Assembly (NCBI RefSeq): GCF_026230175.1
Contig: NZ_CP104208.1
Location: forward strand, 3,100,001 to 3,164,000
Origin: Desulfovibrio mangrovi
Lineage (GTDB): Bacteria > Desulfobacterota > Desulfovibrionia > Desulfovibrionales > Desulfovibrionaceae
DNA length: 64,000 nucleotides
Reading direction: 5' to 3'
The position numbers and the translations under genes are program-made. Positions 7,950 to 41,070 of this stretch are shown in pieces (positions within the stretch are counted from its first letter, which is position 1; every line of letters begins with the position of its first letter). A model generated the notes under the pieces. That model was given only the letters and a program-made list of their open reading frames with translations, did no database searches and was not told the origin of the DNA.

Positions 7950-8131
7950 TTTCACTCTGTCCTTTTGCCTGAGAGGTTCGCCCATGCCTGGCGGCAGGGT
8001 TTGCTCCTTCGGCGCTTCCACGGGGGAAGTCTCTCCAGAGGTTCGTCAAACAGCAGTCCTTTTGCCTGAAAGATTTACTTCTTCGGCGGCATCCACACGC
8101 ATGCGCGGGAATGCTCTCTCCTGCTGTCGTC
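7950..8131 (-). promoter_or_regulatory. Tandem glycine riboswitch
   Basis: Two glycine aptamers lie head to tail on the minus strand. Aptamer 1 covers about 8050-8127 (P1 CAGCAG/CTGCTG) and aptamer 2 about 7955-8040 (P1 CTCTG/CAGAG). Both contain the conserved GGAGAG, GCCGAAG and CAGGCAAAAGGAC blocks. The expression platform lies between 7955 and the symporter start at 7836. Activation by glycine is usual for catabolic genes, while transport genes can be repressed; the sequence does not settle which applies. Confidence 0.93.
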
Positions 8132-8300
8132 ATCCGAGTTCCAAAAGCGGAAGAGCGGTATACTCCCGTACATGGCGCTTTGCAAGTCCCCTTGTTGCGA
8201 TACTGTTGGTCTGCATAGAATGTTGCGTCTTTCCTGACCGTTTCGACAAATGTTTTCGATATGTTGACCATGCGGGCAGTTTCTTTGGAGAGCCAGCACG

Positions 8301-37349: not shown

Positions 37350-37397
37350 TTGTTCTGCAAACAAAAGAGGCAACGTGCCGGTTATGCGCGCTGCCCC

Positions 37398-37470
37398 CAG
37401 AAACGACTAAGCGGTCCAAGGAGCCACCCTTGAACCGCTGAAATTTTTAGTCGCAAAAGAAAGAAGGTAA
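37398..37470 (-). ncRNA. Candidate sigma-54-driven small RNA, copy 1
   Basis: The predicted transcript starts near 37469, about 12 nt after the GC of a sigma-54-type promoter at 37481-37494. It runs about 70 nt through a nested hairpin: outer stem CGACTAA/TTAGTCG, inner stems GCGGT/ACCGC and CAAGG/CCTTG. It ends near the TCGTTT. The whole promoter-to-hairpin unit (37401-37498) is repeated at 38918-39015 with only 3 differences in 98 bp. No ORF explains the conservation. The RNA is predicted, not proven; the terminator U-tract is short. Confidence 0.5.
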
Positions 37471-37498
37471 TTTGTTTATAGCAGGAGGTGTGCCAAAA
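37401..37498. repeat. 98-bp direct repeat, copy 1
   Basis: Identical to 38918-39015 at 95 of 98 positions. Outside this block the flanks diverge, except for a shared AAAAATTTATACT (37768-37780) and CCTGATGA (37796-37803) at nearly the same offset as in copy 2. Confidence 0.95.
37479..37496 (-). promoter_or_regulatory. Predicted sigma-54 promoter, copy 1
   Basis: On the minus strand TGGCACA-CCTC-CTGCT has the required GG-N10-GC spacing (GG at 37494-37493, GC at 37482-37481). Confidence 0.55.
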
Positions 37499-37812
37499 AT
37501 TCTTTGTCGACTGTTGTTTGTGCTATATTGAATGATAACAGTGCGTTGTGCGTTGCTGCGGGAGGAGTGGACGTCCTGTGTAAAGTACAAAATCTTTGCC
37601 CACAGGGCGGGAAAAGCGCAGGTAGCAAGACGTGAGTTTAGATTTTTGTATTTCTCGGTGGAAGAATAATATATTGAAATAGCAGTGTTTATTTGTCTTG
37701 GTTTCCTGTGTTCGAGGATGCAGAGGCTGGCCTGACTGCACATGGCGCGACAAACGGACTTTGATTAAAAAATTTATACTGGGGATGGAACTCATCCTGA
37801 TGAGGCGGTTTA
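37499..37812. other. AT-rich intergenic region next to repeat copy 1
   Basis: About 310 bp without a convincing gene. If the sRNA model is right, this is the upstream activator region of copy 1. It contains the short motifs AAAAATTTATACT and CCTGATGA shared with the region beside copy 2. Confidence 0.45.
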
Positions 37813-37858
37813 AACGGCAAAGTGCCGGACTGCATATGCAGTCCGGCACTTTGCCGTT
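37813..37858. repeat. Perfect 46-bp palindrome
   Basis: The 23-bp arm 37813-37835 (centre CAT|ATG) is exactly complementary to 37836-37858. There is no loop and no U-tract on either side, so it is not a standard terminator. Confidence 0.95.
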
Positions 37859-37965
37859 GGCGGGATTGTCGGAGTGTGGAAGAAGCGCTCGGGTGAGCGT
37901 TGCCCGTGCTCTACTGAGCGCAGAGGGTGAGAAGAGCCTTCCTGTTCATCCCCGCCATGGAGAGT

Positions 37966-38190
37966 TTAGTCATTTCTGCTATCGGTCGTATCGTCTGATT
38001 CGCGGGAGTCCGCATGGAGGGCGTCTCCCGGCATGTCATTCATTTCCTGTGCGTTGTTCTCTGTATCCATTTCATTTGACGATTCGCCGCTATGCTTTTT
38101 CATGAGCTTTTTCTGGAGCTTTTCTTCTTTCTTTTTACTTTTTGCCAGATCCTTCTGACGTTTTTCAAACTTGTAGTTGCGAGGCGGCAC
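37966..38190 (-). CDS. Small highly charged protein (74 aa)
   Basis: The protein is lysine-rich in its first half (NYKFEKRQKDLAKSKKKEEKLQKKLMKK) and acidic/low-complexity in the second. The start is a GTG at 38188-38190 with an AGGAG site upstream, which is good evidence for translation. It lies just downstream of the RRM gene on the same strand, behind that gene's terminator. The basic helix could bind nucleic acid; no known domain is recognised. Confidence 0.65.
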   Translation of the reverse strand: MPPRNYKFEKRQKDLAKSKKKEEKLQKKLMKKHSGESSNEMDTENNAQEMNDMPGDALHADSRESDDTTDSRND

Positions 38191-38220
38191 TGAAGGGCTC
38201 CTATTCGGTGTGGGTTCGGG

Positions 38221-38258
38221 GAAAAGAAAAGCGCCCGCCTCGCAAAAGAGACGGGCGC
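38221..38258 (-). terminator. Terminator of the RRM gene
   Basis: The stem GCGCCCG-CTC/GAG-CGGGCGC is followed on the minus strand by TTTTCTTTTC. Confidence 0.82.
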
Positions 38259-38289
38259 CCGTAACCGATGCGGATTCCGCGAGGGAAAA

Positions 38290-38553
38290 CTACCAGCGGC
38301 TGCGCTGTTCGCGGGGCTTGGCTTCGTTAACCTTAAGGTTACGTCCGCCGAACTCGCGGCCATCAAGATTGTGGATGGCTTCAGCTGCGCCGGCGTCATC
38401 CATTTCTACGAAGCCGAAGCCACGTGCGCGGCCGGTTTCGCGGTCTTCTACCAGATTTACGGAAGTGACGTTGCCGTAAGCTTCAAAAGCTGCACGAACG
38501 TCGTTTTCGGTAGCGGACCAGGGGAGATTGCCGACATAAAGTTTCTTAGACAT
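38290..38553 (-). CDS. RRM-domain RNA-binding protein
   Basis: This 87-aa protein is a single RNA recognition motif with RNP2 (KLYVGNLPW, about 4-12) and RNP1 (RGFGFVEM, about 44-51) intact, plus a short basic tail (PREQRSRW). It belongs to the small bacterial RRM proteins known from cyanobacteria and Desulfovibrio, often cold-induced. It would bind single-stranded RNA. AAGGAA precedes the ATG at 38551-38553. A hairpin with eight Ts lies about 50 bp upstream on the same strand, suggesting a leader with attenuation or a separate short transcript. Confidence 0.93.
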   Translation of the reverse strand: MSKKLYVGNLPWSATENDVRAAFEAYGNVTSVNLVEDRETGRARGFGFVEMDDAGAAEAIHNLDGREFGGRNLKVNEAKPREQRSRW

Positions 38554-38603
38554 GAGAGTTCCTTGAGAGAAAAAAAATATATTTGGTATGGTGCCCGTGC
38601 GCC

Positions 38604-38642
38604 AAAAAAAAGGGCAGCTCTATCAGTGCGTAGGCTGCTCCT
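38604..38642 (-). terminator. Terminator-like hairpin in the leader of the RRM gene
   Basis: The stem AGG-x-GCAGC/GCTGC-x-CT (one mismatch) is followed on the minus strand by TTTTTTTT, ending 50 bp before the RRM start. No ORF lies upstream to be terminated. It is either an attenuator of the RRM gene or the end of a small RNA beginning near 38,700-38,800. Confidence 0.5.
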
Positions 38643-38917
38643 TGATATTCCTGTTGATTCAAACCAGCGCTGGTCAACATTCGGACCGCGCCTCCACGGG
38701 TGCCGCTGGTATGTGAGCCGTGAAGCTCTCCTGTCGGCTGAGATAAGTCAAGGGATATTTTTCAGAAGATGTGTTTCGAGTCTCTGATGTTGAGGTGTTG
38801 CTGCAGTATTGCGATTGGTTACGTCGTAAAAAAATAATTAGGACATATTTTGAGACGTAAAGGGCAGATGCTATCTGTCTGCTGTGTACGTTTTATGGAA
38901 GAATGATTTTCCCCCAT
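38643..38917. other. Intergenic region upstream of the RRM leader
   Basis: About 275 bp between the leader hairpin and repeat copy 2. No convincing ORF, tRNA or repeat is seen. The promoter for the RRM transcript should lie here. Confidence 0.4.
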
Positions 38918-38987
38918 AAACGACTAAGCGGTCCAAGGAGCCACCCTTGAACCGCTGAAATTTTTAGTCGCAAAAGTAAGAAGGTAA
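38915..38987 (-). ncRNA. Candidate sigma-54-driven small RNA, copy 2
   Basis: Same structure as copy 1. The sigma-54-type promoter (GG-N10-GC, 38998-39011) predicts a start near 38986 and a transcript of about 70 nt ending in the nested hairpin at 38921-38970. The two predicted RNAs are practically identical. The 3 differences in the 98-bp unit fall in the promoter spacer, the leader and the 5' single-stranded part, not in the stems. Confidence 0.5.
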
Positions 38988-39015
38988 TCTGTTTATAGCA
39001 GGAGGCGTGCCAAAA
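38918..39015. repeat. 98-bp direct repeat, copy 2
   Basis: 95 of 98 positions are identical to 37401-37498, in the same orientation, 1517 bp away. Confidence 0.95.
38996..39013 (-). promoter_or_regulatory. Predicted sigma-54 promoter, copy 2
   Basis: On the minus strand TGGCACG-CCTC-CTGCT closely fits the sigma-54 consensus with GG-N10-GC spacing. Confidence 0.58.
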
Positions 39016-39376
39016 TTGGTGTGAAAATGTGCTATTTCATTTTTATTAATTAATACATTTAGTTGCAGTGATGTCTTTGGGTTTGCCAACTTTCGTCGCA
39101 GTAAGAGAATTTTTACCAGGAGAACGCCTGATACCCTGTTCTGGGGGGGCGTGGTTCAGAATTTTGTACCTTTTGTGTGTCATGCAACTAGATAATATTA
39201 TTGTGTATTAATTGTTTTGATGCGGTGCGGTGCAGGCTTCAGGAAAGGAGTTTTCCGGTTTGAAGGGGGCTGGGGCGCATTAATTCAAAAATTTATACTC
39301 CACACCTTGGGGCCTGATGATAGGCTGAAAAGCAGGAGTTATTGTCAGAGGCATTATTCCACCGGCGGGTATCAAT
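39016..39376. other. AT-rich intergenic region before the first binding-protein gene
   Basis: About 360 bp without a convincing gene. It contains AAAAATTTATACT (39287-39299), CCTGATGA (39313-39320) and TTGGGGCCTGA (39307-39317). The last also occurs upstream of the second binding-protein gene. Confidence 0.45.
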
Positions 39377-40066
39377 ATGCGAATTGTCGTCATGTTATTG
39401 GGCCTTGTTCTCTTTTGCTCTCCTGTCAAAGCGGAGACCTATCGAATCGCCACGTTGGATGGAATTACCTACGCGGACATTTCCGCTATGGTGATCAAGG
39501 CGTACGCGCGGCTGGGGCATAACGCGACGGTTATCAATTATCCGGGAGAGCGCGCCCTCTTTCAGTCCAGCCAAGGCATTGCAGATGCCGAACTTGTACG
39601 CACGGCCATCGTGGGGAGGCTATATCCCACACTGGTCAGGATTCCCGTACCGATTGACACTGCCAGAATTACGGCGTTCATGCGTAAGGGGTTGCCTCCT
39701 GTCCGCAATTGGGAAGACCTTTTGCAATACCGGATAGGTGTGGAGATAGGGTTCAAGAGCGCAGAGTTTTACACCCGCGATATGAACGTAACCGCGTTCA
39801 GTGACCGCGAGCGCATGTTCAGGGTGTTGGATGCCGGAAGGCTGGACGTGGTGGTGGTTCTAAGGAGGATTGGCGACCAAGTGATCAACCGACTTAATTT
39901 ACAGAATGTTTACGCCTCAGATCCTCCGTTGTCTGTGGAACCGCTTTATCATTATGTTCACAAGAAGCATGAAACATTGGTGCCGGAACTGGCCAGAGTG
40001 TTTACGGAATTGCTGGCGAACGGCACTTTTGAGAAAAGTAAGCAGGCTCAACAGCTTACGCCGTGA
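39377..40066 (+). CDS. Periplasmic solute-binding protein (SBP family 3-like), paralog A
   Basis: This 229-aa secreted protein has a signal peptide (cleavage near PVKA, residue 19) and the shape of a short family-3 solute-binding protein (YRIATLDGITYADISAMVIKAYARLGH start; LLQYRIGVEIGFKSAEF hinge). Such proteins bind amino acids or serve as sensor-like binding proteins. No permease or ATPase gene is nearby. Its paralog at 40390-41070 shares GERxL, VGVEIG and YHYVHxKH blocks. No strong Shine-Dalgarno is visible before the ATG. Confidence 0.82.
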   Translation: MRIVVMLLGLVLFCSPVKAETYRIATLDGITYADISAMVIKAYARLGHNATVINYPGERALFQSSQGIADAELVRTAIVGRLYPTLVRIPVPIDTARITAFMRKGLPPVRNWEDLLQYRIGVEIGFKSAEFYTRDMNVTAFSDRERMFRVLDAGRLDVVVVLRRIGDQVINRLNLQNVYASDPPLSVEPLYHYVHKKHETLVPELARVFTELLANGTFEKSKQAQQLTP

Positions 40067-40389
40067 AAAGAGCGTTTGGAGGGGGGCGGCTTGAATGCGC
40101 CTGGTGACCAGCTTCAGGGTAAGCCCTGTTTGTGGAGCTTGGGCAGAATATGCCCCGTACGCAGGTAGAATGTGGATCGGGCAGGCGCAGAAAGCGGCGG
40201 GTGAGAAAAGTGAAAGTAAAAGAATTGTAGTGGCCAGATGCGTCATTTGCCGGAGCTTTGCATCTGGGGGATGTCTTGTGTTATGGTGTCGGTTCCATAG
40301 TATCAAATGGGTTCAGGCGCGGTTTCTTTCGTTGGGGCCTGAATGCCGAACATGTAGTGGCGTCGATCCGGGGGATCGGAGGGTTCAGA
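40067..40389. other. Intergenic region between the two binding-protein paralogs
   Basis: About 320 bp; the frame open into the next gene is not protein-like before 40390. It carries TTGGGGCCTGA (40332-40342), which also occurs upstream of paralog A, pointing to duplication of a promoter region. No terminator is evident. Confidence 0.45.
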
Positions 40390-41070
40390 ATGCGGTTGTT
40401 CATGACTCTGCTGGTTCTGTTGGTCTGTTTTCCTGCCATGGCCGGGCAGGTCTATCGTATTTCTGCCTTTGACATGGAGACGGCGCAATCGCTTGTCCCT
40501 ATCGTCGTTGAGGCTTACCGGCGTATAGGGATAACCGTGGAGATTGTGCCTTTGCCCGGAGAAAGGTCGCTGGTCATGGCCAACCGGGGCGAAGTGGACG
40601 GAGAACTGGCGCGCATTCCGTTGATCGGCGAGTTGTATCCGAATCTTATTCAGGTTCCCGTCTCCATCGGATCATATGATGGTGTCGCTTTTTCCAAGAG
40701 CAGTGTCCCCCCTGTGCAGGATTGGGATGATCTGCGCAAGTACAGGGTTGGTGTGGAAATCGGCGTGAAGTTTGCCGAGACCGGAACCAGAGGCATGGAC
40801 GTGGTCAGTTTTGATGACCGCCGCAAGATGTTCGAGATGCTGGGCGTGGGCAAGATAGACGTAGCCGTGCACCTGCGCGAGACGGGGCAGGCGGAACTGC
40901 GTGCCTTGGGCATTACGGATGTCTATGCCCACGAAAAGCCGTTAACCTTGCTGGTCATGTATCACTATGTCCACCGCAAACACGCGATGCTCGTGCCCCA
41001 GCTTGCCAAGGCGCTGGAGGAGATGGAGAAGGACGGCACCATGGCGAGGCTGCGTGGCAAAGAGAATTGA
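40390..41070 (+). CDS. Periplasmic solute-binding protein, paralog B
   Basis: The 226-aa protein has a signal peptide (cleavage near AMA, residue 17) and the same organisation as paralog A. The ATG at 40390 has GGAGGG 6 nt upstream. In-frame sequence back to 40258 is not protein-like. The shared GVEIGVKFAE and YHYVHRKHAMLVPQLAKAL blocks show a tandem duplication, but overall divergence is considerable, so it is old. No transport partner is adjacent. Confidence 0.85.
   Translation: MRLFMTLLVLLVCFPAMAGQVYRISAFDMETAQSLVPIVVEAYRRIGITVEIVPLPGERSLVMANRGEVDGELARIPLIGELYPNLIQVPVSIGSYDGVAFSKSSVPPVQDWDDLRKYRVGVEIGVKFAETGTRGMDVVSFDDRRKMFEMLGVGKIDVAVHLRETGQAELRALGITDVYAHEKPLTLLVMYHYVHRKHAMLVPQLAKALEEMEKDGTMARLRGKEN

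Follow-up and report, generated by a model that had tools for sequence, protein, structure and literature searches.

Among the small RNAs to which the locus described here bears a close likeness in arrangement are the Qrr RNAs of Vibrio, described as five paralogues (Qrr1-5) that end in a hairpin and answer to LuxO and sigma-54. Every Qrr gene is read from a separate sigma-54 promoter, a single activator serving them all, and the RNAs are Hfq-dependent. The LhrC1-5 RNAs of Listeria are likewise multicopy under a single two-component system (LisRK) and are reported to bind target mRNA through CU-rich sites, three redundant ones per RNA; they are not known to be sigma-54-controlled. GlmY of enterobacteria (QseF/sigma-54) is described as having a bEBP-activated sigma-54 promoter with upstream activating sequences (PMC6075780), and in Proteus it heads the operon of its regulator (PMC8745638). 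The alpha-r14 or cuckoo RNAs of Alphaproteobacteria are reported to hold an anti-Shine-Dalgarno motif unpaired whilst their stems diverge strongly; the motif, CCUCCUCCC, lies in three hairpins, and NfeR1 carries a sigma-70 signature (PMC10746234).

In a related bacterium, D. vulgaris Hildenborough, the sigma-54 regulome is reported to include four ncRNAs (PMC4641369), with Dv_sRNA2 placed downstream of DVU0679 (PMC3333781), and these likewise have sigma-54 promoters. Three of the four lie near their own regulator and, comparing by description, they are not presented as a paralogous multi-copy family. The ncRNAs of Oleidesulfovibrio alaskensis were predicted in 18 Rfam families, in a paper that does not mention RpoN (PMC11124144). 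Among the titles and abstract openings of the literature on Desulfovibrio small RNA, sigma-54/RpoN and Hfq, no description of the RNA family reported below was found. Multi-copy sigma-54 sRNAs are a known kind; the particular family, and the set of features that it combines, seem to be undescribed so far, although one of the four D. vulgaris ncRNAs may be a member. What follows apparently concerns a previously undescribed small-RNA gene family with sigma-54 promoters.

The window analysed is a 64,000-nt stretch of the Desulfovibrio mangrovi chromosome. A repeat finder returned a direct repeat of 105 nt at 96% identity (37394-37498 and 38911-39015), the 96-nt core of which (37401-37496 and 38918-39013) differs at three positions (8, 25 and 37). 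This agrees with an earlier note made from the letters of the DNA, which had reported a 98-bp block occurring twice with three mismatches and had read each block as a sigma-54 promoter (GG-N10-GC) followed by a nested hairpin. Both elements are present on the minus strand of the two twins, which runs TTGGCAC-N6-TGCT, eleven bases, ACCTTCTT(T/A)CTTTT and the nested hairpin (table). For the RNA portion of twin A, the predicted fold has -28 kcal/mol (z -5.24), a value equalled by 0 of 200 shuffled sequences. A paralogue elsewhere in the genome, at 473244, closes its hairpin with eight T and so clearly has the sequence of an intrinsic terminator, whereas TTT is all that follows in the twins. The note had further stated that no ORF explains the repeat. 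A small-ORF reading was disfavoured: no ATG, GTG or TTG is common to all four RNAs of the genome, a TTG at RNA position 13 occurring in three.

Table. Predicted features of the twin loci and of the protein gene between them (window positions).
Feature	Positions	Strand	Basis or remark
Twin A sigma-54 promoter	37480-37496	-	TTGGCAC-N6-TGCT; sequence
Twin B sigma-54 promoter	38997-39013	-	TTGGCAC-N6-TGCT; sequence
Twin A small RNA, predicted	37398-37468	-	start A37468, single-stranded ACCUUCUUUCUUUU, nested hairpin to ~37401-37398; folds
Twin B small RNA, predicted	38915-38985	-	ACCUUCUUACUUUU and hairpin as in twin A
RRM (RNA recognition motif) protein gene, 87 aa	38290-38553	-	Pfam RRM_1, 9e-22; between the twins
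Twin A upstream activator dyad, putative	37585-37600	.	~-105 from first promoter base
Twin A upstream activator dyad, putative	37636-37651	.	~-155
Twin A upstream activator dyad, putative	37764-37779	.	~-284; also in D4 repeat
Twin B upstream activator dyad, putative	39101-39116	.	~-103
Twin B upstream activator dyad, putative	39154-39169	.	~-156
Twin B upstream activator dyad, putative	39283-39298	.	~-285; also in D4 repeat

Searching the whole genome with a 121-base DNA query recovered the two twins together with 31 nt of a third copy. A DNA search across genomes gave matches in 12 of 59, the present one included. What recurred across genomes was the promoter, the 5' end and the hairpin, with differing stem sequences. 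A covariance model, R1, was built from 13 members, 19 sequences having been considered at first; left out of these were L014 (promoter-like only), L011 (near-identical to L010), and L003, L009, L015 and L020, whose stems did not fit the columns, while the hairpin-only piece L013 was not among the 19. R1 finds four copies in the genome (C1:3137401, 3138918, 2439548 and 473244; E<=0.05), each with promoter and hairpin, beyond which its one hit, of 34 nt, is at E 9.5. Every one of the 10 genus genomes carries matches (28, of which 25 at E<=3.3e-5); the weak ones L040, L044 and L045 (E 0.005-0.007) were excluded as their promoter was not in place. Within the family, 86 of 149 genomes and 29 of 44 genera match at E<=0.01. 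In the order, 111 of 297 genomes match at E<=0.001, 109 of them in the same family; the two outside it, G039 and G051, have E above 1e-4.

A broader model, R2, built on 71 matches, recovers six of eight tested family genomes negative with R1 (E<=1.1e-5) and is weak in G026 and G034 (E 0.001-0.004). At E<=1 it gives 19 matches in the D. mangrovi genome, 15 beyond the four copies. The fifth-best (C1:1575797-1575861, E 8.7e-4) covers model positions 32-96, that is the hairpin half with no promoter, and the remainder are at E 0.015 or worse; we tentatively read these 15 as other hairpins. Copies may also be clustered, with three-copy arrays within ~0.8-1.2 kb in G145, G134, G060 and G063. Among the loci collected, L050 is the same as L093 and L058 the same as L092. 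Taken with the conservation described below, these searches support the view that the genome has four paralogues of one family-wide RNA, the twins making up half of them. Because twin A is nearer to twin B (96% identity) than to the copies of G006, a genome of the same genus (82-87%), homogenisation or recent duplication of the pair is suggested.

Across 69 distinct sequences, pairing is retained in 98.0% of cells at the ten stem pairs, and in all ten both sides have changed. The covariation score is 0.833; shuffling the rows gives 0.221, and sliding the partners no more than 0.224. The alignment (A4) had been adjusted to the structure of the model and consists of related rows, so these pair counts lean towards that structure, and an alignment-free folding check was therefore made: folded singly, 67 of the 69 members have z<-3, and in 54 the first 12 nt are unpaired. 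Stems thus vary yet pair, whereas the promoter and an exposed 5' ACCUUCNUUCUUUU are constant, TGGCA and the -12 TGC being present in 69/69 rows and the start A in 68/69. An apical GGGUGGC(A/U)CC is common to most copies within the genus. The -24/-12 element stands at a fixed distance from the predicted RNA 5' end, as in sigma-54-dependent sRNA genes. The start of twin A was placed from this spacing and from the conserved A. As that A lies at about the usual sigma-54 distance from the -12 element, the RNA is expected to open with ACCUUCUUUCUUUU.

The predicted 5' end resembles the anti-Shine-Dalgarno tail of 16S rRNA, CACCUCCUUU in this genome, whose 16S tail reads CACCUCCUUUAAGG. Pairing of the 5' end with AAAGAAGGU averages -7.68 kcal/mol, compared with -4.36 for shuffled 5' ends, and falls in the best 5% of composition-matched shuffles in 44 of 69 rows, the rows being related. 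With AAAGGAGGU that level is reached in 18/69 rows and with the weaker Shine-Dalgarno sequence AAAUGAGGU in 1/69; two control purine strings reach it in 1/69 and 11/69. Given these low counts for AAAGGAGGU and AAAUGAGGU, anti-Shine-Dalgarno pairing is only partly supported. The exposed 5' end looks suited to blocking ribosome-binding sites. A strict target pattern, AAAGAAGGT-N3-10-ATG, was not enriched in the D. mangrovi genome (7 matches, two of which overlap, vs 6 in reversed controls), and stood at 4 vs 7 in G006, 2 vs 5 in G004 and 7 vs 3 in G003. One of the matches in the D. mangrovi genome opens a 501-aa reading frame (L239).

Upstream of each twin promoter lie three putative activator dyads (consensus GTACAAAATTTTGTAC), at about -285, -155 and -105, and other family members have two or three in similar places. 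The farthest was also picked up by the repeat finder as the D4 repeat (37761-37780 and 39280-39299), with a spacing of 1519 against 1517 for the twins. Apart from such short sites at matching distances, the upstream flanks of the twins are not alike over any length: compared without gaps, 40 nt at a time, they agree at 20/40 positions or fewer. Promoter and RNA indeed belong to the conserved unit, as the note had it, but these sites indicate that its upstream limit was drawn too short, the regulatory part probably extending to ~37779 and ~39298. A matrix of 32 sites from this genus, picked by eye, was applied to held-out sequences. Of 53 upstream regions from other genera, 46 reached at least 12 bits; among the controls, that score was attained by 70 of 12727 background windows, by 68 of 6138 AT-matched ones and, after shuffling, by 0.4 of 53 regions. 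In the window, sites of at least 11 bits number seven, six of them being the three dyads per twin; as the scanning matrix was trained partly on the window's own sites, we regard this count as an illustration and the held-out count as the test. In one set of 18 loci the promoter was in place in 12, and 10 of the 12 have a dyad of at least 16 bits; the six without it, among them L184 (G018) and L190 (G014), were left unscored. These observations support the dyad array as the trace expected of one shared sigma-54 enhancer-binding activator.

A gene for such an activator does not adjoin the RNA as a rule. Matches to the activator domain number 39 in the genome; two are weak, and not one lies closer than ~40 kb to any of its four copies. 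Among 40 context loci (~10-19 kb each) an activator gene is strong only in L127 and L136 (~4 kb off) and weak in L142 and L092. Narrowing by small genomes that carry the RNA left five bEBP orthologue groups common to G079, G067 and D. mangrovi (in the latter L097, L098, L100, L094 and L095); for G020, 10 of 14 matches were compared, the L095 group not among them. A few loci of these five groups have one or two dyads of at least 11 bits, and none has dyads at ~50-bp spacing. In G237 (1.4 Mb), the RNA start and two strong putative activator sites stand at a contig end (L193), and its single clear bEBP is no orthologue of the five candidates; this genome either contradicts the shortlist or is incomplete.

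A PAS-domain bEBP gene (Pfam; L127:6522-8036) lies inside the sRNA cluster of G091. We did not adopt it as the activator because its best match among 29 activators of D. mangrovi is partial (~43-49% over part of the length) and a 12-kb stretch from the same genus as G091 (L088) holds no activator gene.

How the family stands beside the described systems can now be set out. No Rfam family reaches its gathering score at the twins; at E<=10 (37380-39040) the RNA is touched by asX6 alone, whose 18.2 bits (E 3.8) fall well short of the cut-off of 50. Qrr in particular is absent both from the matches at gathering score in the whole window and from those at E<=10 in 37380-39040. The Qrr-type arrangement of a sigma-54 promoter with putative upstream bEBP sites in several copies is found here, judged by sequence, and the note's comparison with Qrr RNAs of unrelated sequence proved apt: the present family may be analogous to Qrr in its working, yet it is not Qrr. 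It differs in its anti-Shine-Dalgarno-like 5' end and in belonging to a genus without detected Hfq, and its activator dyad presumably differs from the LuxO site. Unlike GlmY, most copies have no adjoining activator and no Rfam match. Set beside LhrC, the family is multicopy and its predicted RNA has an unpaired CU-rich 5' end that may bind mRNA, again with no Rfam match; there is a single such end in place of three sites. As in the cuckoo or alpha-r14 RNAs, an unpaired anti-Shine-Dalgarno-like motif is kept while stems change; their layout of CCUCCUCCC in three hairpin loops was not found, the members here having ACCUUCNUUCUUUU-like 5' ends and one conserved stem.

The RNA recurs in characteristic places. 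Fifteen of the 40 context loci, in seven genera and including the 473244 copy, have it between sua5/YrdC and a NUDIX gene (Pfam-checked at three loci), and a sixteenth has sua5 alone. The RRM gene between the twins also stands beside three copies in G006 (L076) and one in G103, of another genus (L136), and G006 repeats the order of the window: M48, two copies, KK-rich ORF, RRM gene, one copy. Hfq (PF17209) was not detected in any of the 10 genus genomes (G000-G009), despite sRNA-like genes and an RRM protein; the same profile matches in 5 of 14 control genomes. Adjoining the RRM gene, a 74-aa lysine/glutamate-rich (KK-rich) ORF (37966-38190) has no Pfam match and is 61% identical over 67 aa in G006. 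Between it and the far dyad of twin A lies a perfect 46-bp palindrome (37813-37858; 23-nt arms, no spacer), possibly a terminator; a similar hairpin-forming stretch occurs in G006.

Conservation, covariation, synteny and upstream sites together support a duplicated, Qrr-analogous unit of sigma-54 promoter and small hairpin RNA. We consider it probable that the family comprises multi-copy, sigma-54-dependent trans-acting sRNAs that pair through their 5' end with Shine-Dalgarno regions. Four paralogous genes, the twins among them, would each encode an RNA of ~70 nt. A bEBP, responding to a signal, would bind two to three dyads ~100-285 bp upstream and fire the -24/-12 promoter, so that expression would require rpoN; transcription would start at or next to the conserved A and give an RNA with unpaired ACCUUCUUUCUUUU at its 5' end, for which the strong 3' hairpin would serve as terminator and stabiliser. 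The 5' end would pair with ribosome-binding regions of AAAGAAGG/AAAGGAGG type and thereby lower translation of a set of target mRNAs whilst the activator is on, several copies providing a higher dose.

Base-pairing to ribosome-binding regions is the most likely mode of action, and protein titration its main rival. The same sigma-54 small RNA might use its hairpin to titrate a protein, either the neighbouring RRM protein or CsrA; the presence of an RRM gene at the twins, in G006 and next to a copy in another genus, the undetected Hfq and the apical GGGUGGC(A/U)CC of most genus copies are all in keeping with this. Yet loops and stems change across genera where the unpaired 5' pyrimidine end is constant, there is one hairpin only per ~70-nt RNA, and other loci have different neighbours (sua5/NUDIX), and we judge titration to be quite unlikely. 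The RRM gene bears on another alternative, in which the hairpins would act as sigma-54-driven leader or attenuator elements for adjoining genes: twin B points towards it on the same strand and ends 365 nt upstream of its start, an arrangement repeated in G006. Against a leader, twin A runs into the convergent M48 gene, RNA and RRM gene are convergent in L136, the hairpin of the sua5/NUDIX copy ends in eight T, and neighbours vary from locus to locus, which makes such a role very improbable.

The RNA could instead be one of the four D. vulgaris ncRNAs, for example that upstream of DVU3282 under DVU1419, in which case the family would in effect be known. Those ncRNAs belong to a sigma-54 regulome (PMC4641369; Dv_sRNA2, PMC3333781), and the one under the response regulator DVU1419 is, as described, unlinked to its regulator, as are the copies here; however, two of the four are reported to follow the gene of their own regulator, and a third is placed upstream of DVU2357 in the vicinity of DVU2359, an association found strongly at only the two context loci named above. 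We regard this identity as unlikely. The earlier note had named as a contrary outcome a MITE, with many copies and target-site duplications; the copy number, four by R1, does not fit this. A near-identical pair at such short distance would indeed suit a small mobile element of the MITE or REP kind, or a hairpin site acting in the DNA itself, but that copy number, the synteny across genera, the compensatory stem changes and the putative activator sites at fixed distances leave this reading scarcely credible.

If the preferred reading of trans-acting, pairing sRNAs is right, Qrr-like sigma-54 control of redundant sRNAs would exist far from Vibrio, in unrelated RNAs, and in a genus without detected Hfq on whose riboregulation we found little in the literature. 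The occurrence of the family in 10/10 genus genomes and most sampled family genomes, with a common putative activator site, offers a directly testable regulon, for which the protein encoded by the intervening RRM gene is a concrete candidate as chaperone. More speculatively, though we rate this as rather improbable, there could be a family-wide, Hfq-independent regulon directed against ribosome-binding sites, in which one conserved bEBP would drive sigma-54 sRNA arrays whose 5' end, a decoy of the 16S 3' tail, would turn down many mRNAs on one signal, possibly with the RRM protein as chaperone.

Two further observations concern the window. Beyond twin B, 39377-41070 encodes two tandem proteins ~40% identical to each other, the second a weak SBP_bac_3 match below cut-off and the first with no Pfam match. 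On the minus strand at 7955-8133, two matches to Rfam RF00504 mark tandem glycine riboswitch aptamers.
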